Part shown: positions 1,966-5,643 of the stretch, in pieces
Numbering within the stretch: position 1 is the stretch's first letter
How the letters are laid out: each line of letters opens with the position of its first letter
From: Deltaproteobacteria bacterium
GTDB taxonomy: Bacteria > JAUYMQ01
Direction: 5' to 3'
NCBI GenBank assembly: GCA_030698575.1
Contig: JAUYMQ010000194.1
Coordinates: 1 to 5,685 of the forward strand
Length of the DNA: 5,685 nucleotides
Position numbers and translations under genes: made by a program
The notes under the pieces: model-generated
Seen by the model: only the letters and a program-made list of their open reading frames with translations
Told to the model about the DNA's origin: nothing
The model's database searches: none

Positions 1966-2517
1966 ATGGTTAAGAGAATAACAACTAAGAGAGCCGCGTC
2001 CGAGGCCGAGGCGCCCGAGGTGGAAGACTACGACGACTTTCGTGAGCTTGAGGACGCGCTGCGCATCGACGAGCACGCGCTTGAGAGGGCCCTGCGCGAC
2101 CAGCCGGTGATGTTCTACCGGGTGGCGAATGCCTACGCGCTGGAGATCTCGCGCCGGGATGCCGCCAAGCAGGCGCTGCAGGACGTGGAGGCGGAGGCTG
2201 ATCTGAGCGTCCGCGGCCGAGCCCAGAGGGATGATCAAAAGATCACGGAGGGGCAGATACGGGCGACTGTTCAGACTGACGGGCGGGTCGCCCAGGCCCA
2301 GGCGAGTCTAGCGCGGCGCAGTGAGGCGGTCGGCAAGTTGGCGGCGCTCAAGGAGGCGTTCCAGCAGCGTTCGTATGCGCTCAAGGATCTGGCCGGGCTC
2401 TACGTGGCTAACTACTACACGGCGTCCGAGCATAACGCAGCGTCGGGCGCAGTGCGAACCCGAGATGCCGCCGAGGCTCGCGCTCGCATGAGCGAGGCGC
2501 GGAACGCGCGTAAATAG
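1966..2517 (+). CDS. Candidate UvsY-like recombination mediator (helical charged protein)
   Basis: In T4, UvsY helps the UvsX recombinase displace gp32 and assemble on ssDNA. This 183-aa protein has no enzymatic motif, no cysteine and no membrane segment, and is largely predicted helix. A Lys/Arg N-terminus (1-10) is followed by an acidic stretch (13-31). A core follows: RIDEHALERAL (33-43), VMFYRVANAY (48-57), an Ala/Glu helix through DVEAEADL (73-80), a basic patch with R83, R85 and R88, KITEGQIRATV (92-102), and AFQQRSYALKDLAGLY (131-146). By eye this order follows T4 UvsY: an FID...L start, a vm.Y segment, an 'RIEA' helix followed by KAR, a K.tv block, and a final 'aIksRgfaIkhi' helix. 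The protein also has a disordered Ala/Arg tail (155-183). Context is supportive: gp32-like and UvsX/RecA-like genes lie just downstream. The similarity is weak and recalled, not computed, so the call is tentative. Otherwise it is a conserved phage protein of unknown function. Confidence 0.5.
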   Translation: MVKRITTKRAASEAEAPEVEDYDDFRELEDALRIDEHALERALRDQPVMFYRVANAYALEISRRDAAKQALQDVEAEADLSVRGRAQRDDQKITEGQIRATVQTDGRVAQAQASLARRSEAVGKLAALKEAFQQRSYALKDLAGLYVANYYTASEHNAASGAVRTRDAAEARARMSEARNARK

Positions 2518-2548: not shown

Positions 2549-2710
2549 GTGGATTGGATTTTTCTGATCTCTGTAGGGTTCGTGGGCCTTGTCGGGCTCT
2601 ACGTTGCGGTGTGGATCGCCACGCGCGCATTCTTCGACAACAAGGCGGATTACAACAGACGGCTGCTCGAGCAGCTAGAGGAGAAGGCAGATGCTGAAGA
2701 AGAAAGGTAA
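2549..2710 (+). CDS. Small single-pass membrane protein, 53 aa, function unknown
   Basis: This GTG-initiated frame fills the interval between the UvsY-like and SSB genes and ends in TAA at 2708-2710, overlapping the SSB start by 20 bases. The product begins MDW and then has one uninterrupted hydrophobic segment (about 4-24: IFLISVGFVG, then LVGLYVAVWI). Its charged, helix-prone C-terminus contains RR at 37-38 and a Glu/Lys-rich end (41-53). Positive charges after the membrane segment predict a short N-terminus outside and the C-terminus in the cytoplasm. GAGG stands 6 bases before the start. A transmembrane segment followed by an amphipathic charged tail in a good ribosomal context is unlikely to arise by chance, but I do not recognise a family. 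It could be a membrane anchor or a small phage toxin-like or host-takeover peptide. Its place inside the replication cluster is the only functional clue. Confidence 0.6.
   Translation: MDWIFLISVGFVGLVGLYVAVWIATRAFFDNKADYNRRLLEQLEEKADAEEER
2678..2687 (+). promoter_or_regulatory. RBS for the SSB gene, within the small membrane-protein gene
   Basis: GAGGAG (2678-2683) and the following AAGG (to 2687) precede ATG 2691 by 7 and 3 bases. They lie inside the last codons of the 53-aa frame, so translation of the small gene would pass through the SSB initiation site. Confidence 0.65.
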
Positions 2711-3623
2711 GGGCAAGCCCGGTTCCGGATTCAAGTATCATCCGCGGACCGGAGATGATGTGAAGAAGCGCGCCGAGCAGAAGGGCGGGCAGTTCGATTC
2801 GATCATTCGCTCCGGCATCGACCGGTGGCGTCCGAAGGACGGCGAAAACATCATTCGCATCCTGCCACCGACCTGGGAAGACCACGACCACTACGGCCTG
2901 GACATCTGGGTGCACGCCTTCGTCGGGCCGGACCGGTCGACCTACCTGTGCCCGCAGAAGATGAAGAACGAGCCGTGCCCGATCTGCAAGCTGGCGCGCG
3001 AGTCCAAGGCGTCCGGCGAAGACGACGAGGCCAAGCAGCTGCAGTCGCAGCGCCGGGTCGCGGTCTGGATCCTCGACCGGGACGACGAGAAGTCCACCCC
3101 GATGCTGTTCGATATGTCCTGGTCGATGGACCGGGATATCGCGGCCCTGTGCCACAACAAGCGCACCGGGAAGGTCCTGCTCATCGACCACCCGGACGAG
3201 GGGTACGACATCCTATTCACGCGTACCGGCAAGGGCCTGAACACGCGCTACATTGGCATGGCGGTCGATCGCGAGTCGTCCCCCATCATGGGGGACGAGG
3301 GCGAGCAGGAGAAGATGCTCACGTATATCCAGGAGAACCCGATCCCGGATGTGCTCAACTTCTACGACTCGGACTATCTCGATAAGATGATCAACGCGGA
3401 GGTGTCGGAGAAGGACGCGGAGCTCGATCCCGAGGAAGAAGAGGAAGTCGAGAGCCGTCACCCCAGGAAGAAGACGTCGTCGTCCAAGCGGGCCCGGGAC
3501 GATAAGGAGCCCGAGGAGGAAGCCGAAGAAGAAGAAGTCGAGGAGGAGGAAGTCGAGGAAGAAGCTCCCCCTTCGCGATCCGCCGGCCGGTCCCGGTCGG
3601 TCGGGAGCAGAAACCGACGTTAG
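2691..3623 (+). CDS. ssDNA-binding protein, T4 gp32-like with zinc motif
   Basis: It would coat single-stranded DNA in replication and recombination and interact with the recombinase and mediator. The N-terminus is Lys/Gly-rich (1-16), comparable to the basic cooperativity region of gp32. The core (about 40-240) holds GENIIRILPP (51-60), which resembles the first strand of the OB fold. A likely zinc site is H75-x11-C87-x8-C96-x2-C99, close to T4 gp32's H-x12-C-x9-C-x2-C; H65 and H67 are alternative ligands. Conserved-looking segments include VAVWILDRDD (123-132), MLFDMSWSM (138-146) and VLLIDHPDEGYDILFTRTGKG (from 162). The C-terminal quarter is low complexity: an acidic run (243-254), a Lys/Arg/Ser patch (256-272), acidic repeats (273-291), and a final Ser/Arg stretch (295-310). 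An acidic C-terminus is standard for SSBs, but the basic end is not. The gene overlaps the small membrane-protein gene and is followed by the recombinase after 37 bases. Length 310 aa is close to gp32 (301 aa). Confidence 0.87.
   Translation: MLKKKGKGKPGSGFKYHPRTGDDVKKRAEQKGGQFDSIIRSGIDRWRPKDGENIIRILPPTWEDHDHYGLDIWVHAFVGPDRSTYLCPQKMKNEPCPICKLARESKASGEDDEAKQLQSQRRVAVWILDRDDEKSTPMLFDMSWSMDRDIAALCHNKRTGKVLLIDHPDEGYDILFTRTGKGLNTRYIGMAVDRESSPIMGDEGEQEKMLTYIQENPIPDVLNFYDSDYLDKMINAEVSEKDAELDPEEEEEVESRHPRKKTSSSKRARDDKEPEEEAEEEEVEEEEVEEEAPPSRSAGRSRSVGSRNRR
3417..3563 (+). repeat. GAG/GAA-rich low-complexity tract coding the SSB acidic tail
   Basis: Codons 243-291 of the SSB gene are dominated by GAG and GAA, with GAAGTCGA recurring at 3444, 3534 and 3549 (EEEV units). 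The repeats are imperfect and in frame. They make length change by slippage possible without loss of frame. A Lys/Arg/Ser patch interrupts the tract at codons 256-272. Confidence 0.7.
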
Positions 3624-3660: not shown

Positions 3661-4707
3661 GTGATGGTTGAGCGAACGCGGAGCCGGCGCGGAGCCGGCG
3701 GTCGGGTCGACGGCGGTGGAAATTATTTCGCCGCGCCGAAAGATGATATCGACTTCGTTCCGACCGGTTGCGTTCTGCTCGACCTGGCCCTGGGTGGGGG
3801 CTGGGCCGAGCGGAAGGTCTGCAACATCATCGGCGACTCTTCATCGGGTAAGACGCTCCTCGCGACCGAGGCGATGGCGAACTTCCTCCAGAAGTACCCG
3901 AAGGGCAAGGCCCGCTTCCGGGACGTCGAGGAGGCGTTTATCCCCTCGTACGCGCGGACCCTGGGGGTCGACGTCGATAAGATCGACTTCGGCTCCGGGG
4001 ACGCGCCTATACTGACCGTTGAGGACCTCTACGAGGATCTGGAGGCGGTCACCGCGAAGGCCCGCCGGCCTGAGTTTTACGTGGTCGACTCGCTCGACTC
4101 ACTCTCCGATCGAGCCGAGCTGGCGCGCAAGTTCGACGAACCGACGTTTGGGGGCAATAAGGCCAAGCAGATGTCGCAGCTGTTTCGCCGGATCACTAGC
4201 CTGGTCGAGAAGTCCAACGTTACGCTCATGTTCATCTCGCAGGTGCGCGCGGACATTGGCCCCTTCGCGTCGGCGCGGGGGACCAAACAGTCGGGCGGGT
4301 GGGCGGTCCGCTTCTACCGCAGTCAGGCCCTATACCTATCGACCAAGGGGAAGATCTACAAGACCGTGCGGGGGCTCAAGAAGCCGCTGGGCATCAATGT
4401 TCGCGCCTACGTCGACAAGAACCGCGTCGGGCTGCCGTACCGAGAGGCCGAGTTTCCCATCCTGTTCGGGTACGGGATCGACGATGTGGCGGCCAGCCTC
4501 GACTGGCTCAAGAGCATCAAGCGCTTGGACGAGCTGGGCATCAGTAACACCGTCGAGAAGGGGGAGCTGCTCAAGATCAAGAGGCAGTATACGCTGGCAG
4601 AGGGCGGGCCTGAGGTCCCCGCCGAGGAAATCACCGCCTTAGTCAAAAAAAACTGGTACGAGATCGAAGAGCAGATCCTGCCTACGCGGAGGAAGTATGG
4701 TGGGTGA
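3661..4707 (+). CDS. RecA/UvsX-family DNA recombinase
   Basis: This ATP-dependent strand-exchange protein would act in recombination-dependent replication and repair. The Arg/Gly-rich N-terminus (5-20) precedes VPTGCVLLDLALGGG (33-47), equivalent to the RecA 'TGSLSLDIALG' block. Walker A is GDSSSGKT (58-65). FRDVEEAFIPSYARTLGVD (86-104) matches RecA's 'FIDAEHALDPxYAxxLGVD', placing the catalytic Glu at E90. Walker B is FYVVDSLDSL (139-148). FISQVR (191-196) aligns with RecA FINQIR and carries the allosteric Gln194. GGWAVRFYRSQALYL (212-226) matches the RecA signature around loop L2. The C-terminus ends in a basic TRRKYGG, without RecA's acidic tail. Length (348 aa) is between UvsX and RecA. 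GTG 3661 is chosen for its spacing; ATG 3664 would remove one residue. The gene overlaps the next by 11 bases. A short tandem duplication sits in codons 6-13. Family call is firm; whether it is closer to UvsX or RecA is open. Confidence 0.95.
   Translation: MMVERTRSRRGAGGRVDGGGNYFAAPKDDIDFVPTGCVLLDLALGGGWAERKVCNIIGDSSSGKTLLATEAMANFLQKYPKGKARFRDVEEAFIPSYARTLGVDVDKIDFGSGDAPILTVEDLYEDLEAVTAKARRPEFYVVDSLDSLSDRAELARKFDEPTFGGNKAKQMSQLFRRITSLVEKSNVTLMFISQVRADIGPFASARGTKQSGGWAVRFYRSQALYLSTKGKIYKTVRGLKKPLGINVRAYVDKNRVGLPYREAEFPILFGYGIDDVAASLDWLKSIKRLDELGISNTVEKGELLKIKRQYTLAEGGPEVPAEEITALVKKNWYEIEEQILPTRRKYGG
3677..3698 (+). repeat. 11-bp perfect tandem duplication near the recombinase start
   Basis: CGCGGAGCCGG occurs twice back to back (3677-3687 and 3688-3698). 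The unit is not a multiple of three, so gain or loss of a copy would switch the frame between the start codon and the rest of the gene. It encodes part of the Arg/Gly-rich N-terminus. Confidence 0.75.
4688..4692 (+). promoter_or_regulatory. RBS of the CSxxK-motif gene; close spacing
   Basis: GGAGG ends 4 bases before ATG 4697 and 7 before the adjacent in-frame GTG 4700. The second spacing is the more usual one, so the true start may be GTG 4700. Both give the same protein apart from one residue. The site lies in the recombinase coding end. Confidence 0.6.
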
Positions 4708-5149
4708 TGGGCGCCTACTAATTATGGCGTGCAGTAAACGTAAACGGAACCGCCCCATCCCCGCTGTGGATCTTTATGATGGTTCCGCGTATCGGGTGTT
4801 GAAGAAACGTAATGTCGGGTTCCACCGGGTTCCGGTGTTGGTCTTGTCGGCCAAACATGGTCTCATCAAGTCGACCCGGGTCATCGCGCCCTATGACCAG
4901 AAGATGGATGAAGACCGGGGGATGGAATTGTCCGCGAACTATGCGATCGAGCGAGCTCATGCACTAGTGCGGGGGTTGTCAGGATGGCCGTTCAAAAAGG
5001 CTTTTTGTCACGGTGGGGCGCACTACCGGATGGTCGTGAAAAAATACGAGTCTGCCGGGGTGTTCGGCGGCGCTTCGGTCAGTTATTCGCATGGTGGTAT
5101 GGGCGAGCAGTTGGCGCAGCTGCTTAGATTCTTGGAAGGTACCGGGTGA
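4697..5149 (+). CDS. CSxxK-motif protein, DUF6884-like, function unknown
   Basis: The 150-aa product begins with a hydrophobic strand followed by a conserved-looking motif, LLIMACSKRK (7-16), then PAVDLYDGSAYR (22-33), LVLSAKHGLI (48-57), IAPYDQKM (63-70), CHGGAHYR (104-111) and SHGGMGEQLAQLLRFL (131-146). The combination 'xACSxxK ... A.DLY.S..f ... LSAK.GL ... P.Y' is the pattern I associate with DUF6884, a small family frequent in phages and lacking an established function. The C-S-x-x-K motif also recalls archaeosine-synthase-type domains, but that link is speculation. Cys12, Lys14/16, His54, Cys104 and His105 are candidate active-site residues. ATG 4697 overlaps the recombinase end by 11 bases, and the stop overlaps the GTG of the NusG-like gene. 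Base composition is lower in GC (about 55 % in two 60-base samples at 4741-4860) than in both flanking genes, suggesting separate acquisition. The start could also be GTG 4700 or ATG 4724. Confidence 0.72.
   Translation: MVGDGRLLIMACSKRKRNRPIPAVDLYDGSAYRVLKKRNVGFHRVPVLVLSAKHGLIKSTRVIAPYDQKMDEDRGMELSANYAIERAHALVRGLSGWPFKKAFCHGGAHYRMVVKKYESAGVFGGASVSYSHGGMGEQLAQLLRFLEGTG
5134..5139 (+). promoter_or_regulatory. RBS supporting GTG 5146 as the NusG-like start
   Basis: GGAAGG ends 6 bases before GTG 5146. The GTG shares two bases with the stop of the preceding gene (GTGA), giving a coupled junction. The frame has no other plausible start before the NGN domain begins at about residue 7. Confidence 0.65.
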
Positions 5150-5643
5150 ATCAAAAACCCCCGTCTTGGATCGTCGTGCGTGCGCGACCGCAGCTGCTCG
5201 CTCGCGCGATCATTAATATGGAGCGCCAGGGGTTCGAGTGCTACGCGCCGCACGCCATGATGCGTGGCGGCCGCGCGCGGCGCCTGCGGCGGTGCCCGCT
5301 GTTCATGGGGTATGTATTCGCGCGCCACCCGGAAGCTCGCTGGGTGTCGCTGCGGGGGACGTTCGGGGTGCTGGGGGTCATCATGGGAACGGGCGAGCGG
5401 CCGGCGCCTCTACCGCACGCTGAGATCGAGCGCCTGAGGGCGCGCGAGGGGCGGGACGGGCTAATCAAGCTCCAGGAGTGCGAGTTCGAGCAGGGTGAGA
5501 GGGTGCACCTGGAGCGAGGTGTAGTAAGTTTGGACGCCATCGTGGATGGGATGTCGGGGCCCGACCGGGTATTCGTGCTGATGCAGGTGCTCGGGCGCTG
5601 GACCCGGGCCGAGGTCTCGGTGGGGAACCTGAGCCGTGGGTAG
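5146..5643 (+). CDS. NusG/RfaH-like transcription elongation factor (NGN + KOW)
   Basis: Proteins of this family bind the RNA polymerase clamp and control pausing, termination and coupling. The NGN domain covers about 7-100. WIVVRARPQLLARAIINMERQGFECYAP (from 8) matches the family's 'W.vv...p..e..a..nLe.qGfe.y.P'. RCPLFMGYVFAR (49-60) corresponds to the signature PLFPGYvFv, and WVSLRGTFGVLGVI (66-79) to 'w..l..t.GV..vv'. After a linker, FEQGERVHLERG (114-125) and DAIVDGM, with VFVLMQVLGRWTRAEV (142-157), fit a KOW domain. At 165 aa it is a little shorter than bacterial NusG (about 180) and close to RfaH (162). It is translationally coupled to the upstream CSxxK gene. A phage-encoded NusG homologue suggests control of the phage's own late or long transcripts, either as an antiterminator or by competing with host NusG. 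Whether it is a specialised RfaH type cannot be told here. Confidence 0.88.
   Translation: MNQKPPSWIVVRARPQLLARAIINMERQGFECYAPHAMMRGGRARRLRRCPLFMGYVFARHPEARWVSLRGTFGVLGVIMGTGERPAPLPHAEIERLRAREGRDGLIKLQECEFEQGERVHLERGVVSLDAIVDGMSGPDRVFVLMQVLGRWTRAEVSVGNLSRG

Follow-up and report, generated by a model that had tools for sequence, protein, structure and literature searches.

A replication and recombination cassette on a draft-genome contig

The window, which is the whole stretch of DNA analyzed here, is one complete contig (C516, 5,685 bases) from a draft genome. All of its main genes point rightward, in the order polA (C-terminal part), clamp loader, the open reading frame under study, a small transmembrane protein gene, a gp32-like SSB gene, a UvsX/RecA gene, a DUF6884 protein gene and a NusG-like gene. 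The family A DNA polymerase gene runs off the contig, and only its C-terminal part is present (positions 3 to 1034, + strand; PF00476, E=1.4e-28; phrog_17). It is followed by a gamma/tau-like AAA+ ATPase of the clamp-loader type (1022 to 1963, +; phrog_5846, E=1.4e-65; PF13177). The target open reading frame begins with an ATG at 1966, ends with a stop codon at 2517 (+) and encodes 183 amino acids (aa). Its start codon lies 2 nt past the clamp-loader stop, and a Shine-Dalgarno-like GGAGGAG (1952 to 1958, +), located within the end of the clamp-loader gene, precedes the ATG by 7 nt, an arrangement consistent with translational coupling.

Downstream are a 53-aa single-transmembrane protein (2549 to 2710, +), which is kept between the target gene and the SSB gene in relatives, a gp32-like SSB with an acidic tail (2691 to 3623, +; PF08804, E=5.1e-8, 33.6 bits against a cut-off of 26.8; phrog_1192, E=2.3e-23), and a UvsX/RecA-type recombinase with the Walker A motif GDSSSGKT (3661 to 4707, +; phrog_97 UvsX-like, E=2.7e-54; PF00154, E=4.8e-37). 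The original prediction, which proposed a divergent UvsY recombination mediator, had placed the target between replication genes and a gp32-like/UvsX-like pair; the profile matches of the polymerase, clamp loader, SSB and UvsX/RecA bear out this placement. The DUF6884 protein gene (4697 to 5149; phrog_5935, weak YaaA similarity) comes straight after the recombinase gene and was not found in the other related loci; several of these loci also carry a NusG-like transcription antiterminator gene like the one at 5146 to 5643.

Relatives of the target in phages

Scans of IMG/VR identified 23, and then 80, related loci, many of them divergent. In an alignment of 56 sequences, full-length relatives were 25 to 46% identical to the target, and many of them come from phage contigs. 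No relatives were found in a contig scan of the bacterial and archaeal genome collection, nor in 58 other bacterial and archaeal genomes. Because of this absence, the target gene is most likely viral rather than cellular, and the contig itself probably comes from a phage and was binned with its host or with a bystander.

The relatives in named phages belong to Vibrio Mardecavirus phages and Escherichia phage Cyrano, and further ones in Herelleviridae were reached through intermediate sequences (Lysinibacillus, Brochothrix, Bacillus, Staphylococcus, Listeria, Enterococcus and Lactobacillus phages). Family members are found in well-known SPO1/K-like phages, including Staphylococcus G1 ORF089 (L128:5001-5483), Brochothrix A9 gp148 (L113:8866-9348) and Listeria P100 gp70; they adjoin ssb and recA where examined and are mostly annotated as hypothetical proteins.

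The UvsY-like domain covers only the C-terminal 110 to 170 columns of phrog_1069 (425 columns), phrog_4969 (362 columns) and phrog_9245 (368 columns), so that in some phages the domain would seem, from these profiles, to be fused to an N-terminal part of 210 to 260 residues. A 419-aa match in BFVD would agree with such a fusion.

Sequence similarity to UvsY

The target matched the PHROG profile “UvsY-like recombination mediator” (phrog_231) with E=0.0013, over residues 27 to 141 of 183 and columns 10 to 131 of 142. The same profile was matched by 9 of 19 relatives (best E=1.1e-8), and T4 UvsY itself matches it with E=9.5e-51. Pfam UvsY (PF11056) was matched by one relative (E=8.8e-4) and not by the target protein itself. 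BLASTP of the target against T4 UvsY as single sequences gave nothing relevant, and the profile of the relatives showed no significant match to the single T4 UvsY sequence; the comparison required a multi-sequence UvsY profile.

Such a profile was built from 15 T4-type UvsYs of Straboviridae, Kyanoviridae and Menderavirus. When compared with it by hhalign, the 56-relative profile scored 36.9 (E=2.2e-5), and a profile of 64 relatives, to which eight relatives from named phages had been added, scored 42.7 (E=1.8e-6, probability 90%). The control maxima were 18.8 for 100 column shuffles, 13.0 for two reversals and 17.8 for 32 further protein families encoded in these phage loci. As the score of 36.9 exceeds the highest of these, the similarity of the target family to UvsY, as judged from sequence profiles, is well above chance. 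Profile-profile comparison thus favored UvsY, in agreement with the original prediction, and produced no confident competing family. When the profile was restricted to five Herelleviridae sequences, its match to T4 UvsY was only weak (E=0.0037). TAL-effector repeats, the sole matches of the relatives' profile in a sequence search of the PDB, were rejected as repeat artifacts in which many fragments of a few bits are summed.

Predicted fold and conserved motifs

The AlphaFold model of the target, computed with the 56-sequence alignment as input, has a mean pLDDT of 88.3 and contains helices at residues 22 to 30, 36 to 88, 95 to 103 and 106 to 182. The helices of T4 UvsY span residues 4 to 14, 21 to 65, 80 to 88 and 91 to 134 (PMC10899321). 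The predicted fold consists of UvsY's four helices with their order kept (short, long, short, long). In Foldseek searches of the PDB, ranks 1 to 22 were all T4 UvsY (4zwt_M, TMt 0.85, rmsd 2.3); the E value of the UvsY match was 1.5e-3, in a setting where long-helix folds yield many middling matches. VIA-align superposed 125 of 125 residues on 4zwt_F (Z=13.8, rmsd 2.1 Å), while the next unrelated entry had Z=9.9 and an rmsd of 5.9 and many unrelated chains reached a Z of ~9. UvsY crystal structures were hence at the top of both comparisons of the monomer model. When aligned by structure, the target and T4 UvsY are ~14% identical in sequence. Annotated UvsY and ssDNA-binding proteins were also among the matches of the model in a viral structure library. 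Matches to VIPP1/PspA and YscO structures had lower Z scores and rmsd values of ~4 to 11 Å, and were discarded as generic long-helix matches.

The motifs listed in the original prediction are all present in the target, and the ID..L start and the final R..a.k.l helix are kept in most or all of the 56 relatives: I34 in 52, D35 in 53, L39 in 54, and R135 of the R135..A.K.L motif in 56. The match of the proposed helix with EA followed by basic residues is uncertain. E75 and A76, followed by R83 and R85, do exist, but matching them to T4 E50, A51, K58 and R60 needs a 7-residue gap inside helix 2. The register of this helix is ambiguous, since hhalign uses the gap with 56 relatives and pairs T4 K58 with R83, whereas the deeper 64-sequence profile does without it and pairs K58 with A76. 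The near-complete structural superposition of the predicted model is better explained without the gap.

Retention of the T4 ssDNA contacts K58/R60 (KARL motif) and F73 in the target family is thus not clear, and the loop that holds F73 in T4 is shorter in the target. All 56 relatives have R, K or H at position 83 and K or R at position 92. These two always-basic positions lie on either side of the turn that joins helix 2 to helix 3, which is the region of the T4 contacts, and are therefore candidate replacements.

Conserved gene order and a small membrane protein

Synteny was counted in the window and 56 non-redundant loci, considering for each gene only those loci with enough flanking sequence. 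Downstream of uvsY, 44 of 45 loci have an SSB gene and all 38 a recA/uvsX gene; upstream of it, 47 of 52 have a clamp-loader gene. The order is constant across loci, with polA mostly further upstream, and the cassette polA, clamp loader, uvsY, gp32-like SSB and uvsX/recA is shared by dozens of divergent metagenomic phages and Vibrio Mardecavirus. In Herelleviridae it comprises polA, uvsY, ssb and recA, and the clamp-loader gene is not adjacent. Of 55 loci, 41 encode an SSB with a strongly acidic tail (charge of −8 or below over 30 residues) and 54 encode a UvsY homolog that ends in a basic tail; this pair of tails would fit a T4-type gp32-UvsY partnership.

A gene for a single-transmembrane protein of 44 to 65 aa is located between uvsY and the gp32-like ssb gene in ~46 of 55 loci (2549 to 2710 in the window, L026:9468-9608, L130:5517-5651), and the motif (A/S)(Y/F)F-x-x-K/R follows its membrane helix. 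Profiles built from half sets recovered the microprotein in held-out loci, including those of Vibrio phage VP06 (3e-8, 1.2e-7) and Edwardsiella phage ZHS (1.2e-5, 2.5e-7). Elsewhere among 11,438 reading-frame fragments, the few profile matches all overlap the uvsY-ssb interval and represent either open frames that extend further or a locus whose uvsY is truncated. The microprotein of the window matched nothing in Pfam, and PHROG gave nothing better than E=0.06; no such gene was recovered in the Herelleviridae loci examined. T4 uvsY.-1 and uvsY.-2, considered as counterparts, are without a comparable hydrophobic stretch. One could imagine that the microprotein anchors UvsY, SSB and UvsX, and through them the family A polymerase, at the host membrane, which we regard as unlikely; if true, it would imply a membrane-bound factory for recombination-dependent replication, distinct from that of T4.

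A probable recombination mediator

The profile relationship, the predicted four-helix fold and the conserved position in the cassette together make it very probable that the target belongs to the UvsY family as a divergent member, with a role, inferred by homology, like that of T4 UvsY. The profile comparison and the predicted fold support the family membership that the original prediction had proposed. T4 UvsY binds and wraps gp32-coated ssDNA, destabilizes gp32 and recruits ATP-bound UvsX, and the acidic C-terminal domain of gp32 is the contact site (PMC3016280, PMC8066028). By analogy, monomers of the target would form a ring (a heptamer in T4) that wraps SSB-coated ssDNA. The mediator would contact the gp32-like SSB at its acidic tail and loosen the hold of the SSB on DNA. 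It would also nucleate a filament of the phage UvsX, and thereby support recombination-dependent replication and repair with the phage family A polymerase. Instead of K58/R60 and F73, the DNA contacts may be positions 83 and 92, near the turn that joins helix 2 to helix 3, together with the basic C-terminal tail.

Two other readings have to be weighed. The protein could share the fold and ancestry of UvsY and yet have an altered role, for instance not as a recombinase loader but as a scaffold joining the clamp loader, SSB and polymerase. The clamp-loader gene, which is almost always directly upstream, the unclear retention of the T4 DNA-contact residues and a helix 4 much longer than that of T4 would be in line with such a change. 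However, recA/uvsX is downstream in all 38 loci with enough sequence and an SSB gene in 44 of 45, and Herelleviridae retain the uvsY-ssb-recA order without an adjacent clamp loader; we therefore consider an altered role quite improbable. It is still far less probable that the target is an unrelated helical coiled-coil protein whose likeness to UvsY reflects convergence of long helices. Long helices do match many folds, as the unrelated chains in VIA-align illustrate, and the target has no Pfam match, but UvsY leads by a clear margin in both Foldseek and VIA-align, the profile score is about twice that of any control, and the partner genes fit.

Comparison with known systems

T4 UvsY (PDB 4zwq, 4zwr, 4zws and 4zwt; PF11056; phrog_231) and the target are alike in the order and packing of four helices, as predicted for the target, and have in common the ID..L start and the R-S/G-Y/F-A-x-K end motif. 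T4 UvsY acts beside gp32 and UvsX, and the target is encoded with a gp32-like SSB and UvsX/RecA. Compared with T4 UvsY, helix 2 of the target is ~8 residues longer, the loop between helices 2 and 3 is shorter, and helix 4 extends ~30 residues further and carries a basic tail. While T4 uvsY adjoins tail genes, the target gene lies among replication genes.

The Herelleviridae proteins (Staphylococcus G1 ORF089, Brochothrix A9 gp148, Lactobacillus Lbab1 gp153; phrog_1069) belong to the same family as the target. Profile comparison of the target family with these proteins, Vibrio phage VP06 included, gave E=2.5e-26, with phrog_1069 in common. As in the window, their genes are in the order uvsY-ssb-recA downstream of polA, whereas they differ from the target in the C-terminal part, in the clamp loader not being adjacent and in being mostly annotated as hypothetical. 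Enterococcus iF6_140 is grouped with the Herelleviridae members by its published annotation. Vibrio Mardecavirus phages VP06 (~30% identity to the target) and SSP002 have members of the same family, and the VP06 cassette is as in the window: polA, (thyX), clamp loader, uvsY, small transmembrane gene, ssb and recA. Escherichia phage Cyrano also has a family member and shares the uvsY-ssb-recA order, with a gene for the DNA polymerase III alpha subunit upstream in place of polA.

The original prediction that the trio is clustered with a family A polymerase outside the T4 setting was right, although the arrangement is not new. DNA polymerase I, UvsY-like, gp32-like and RecA-like proteins are annotated consecutively in Enterococcus phage iF6 (iF6_139 to iF6_142; PMC10054541), uvsY, ssb and uvsX are labeled in a figure legend for another Enterococcus phage (PMC11210271; annotation), and Cyrano is annotated with UvsY, a gp32-like SSB and RecA. 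The target is a new member of a non-T4 UvsY branch, and its novelty is modest as the cassette is already known from the annotation of iF6. A review of jumbo phages confines UvsY, within these phages, to the T4-like ones and states that the rest may have replaced it by recruiting other proteins (PMC7824862). Our data indicate that mediators of the UvsY type are common beyond the T4-like phages. They are encoded by siphovirus-sized phages, by Herelleviridae and by uncultured phages, in which most copies carry a hypothetical annotation, and the family relationship suggests what PHROG families 1069 and 2058 may do. Divergent UvsX/UvsY/SSB sets such as these should be useful for comparing mechanisms and for recombinase polymerase amplification.
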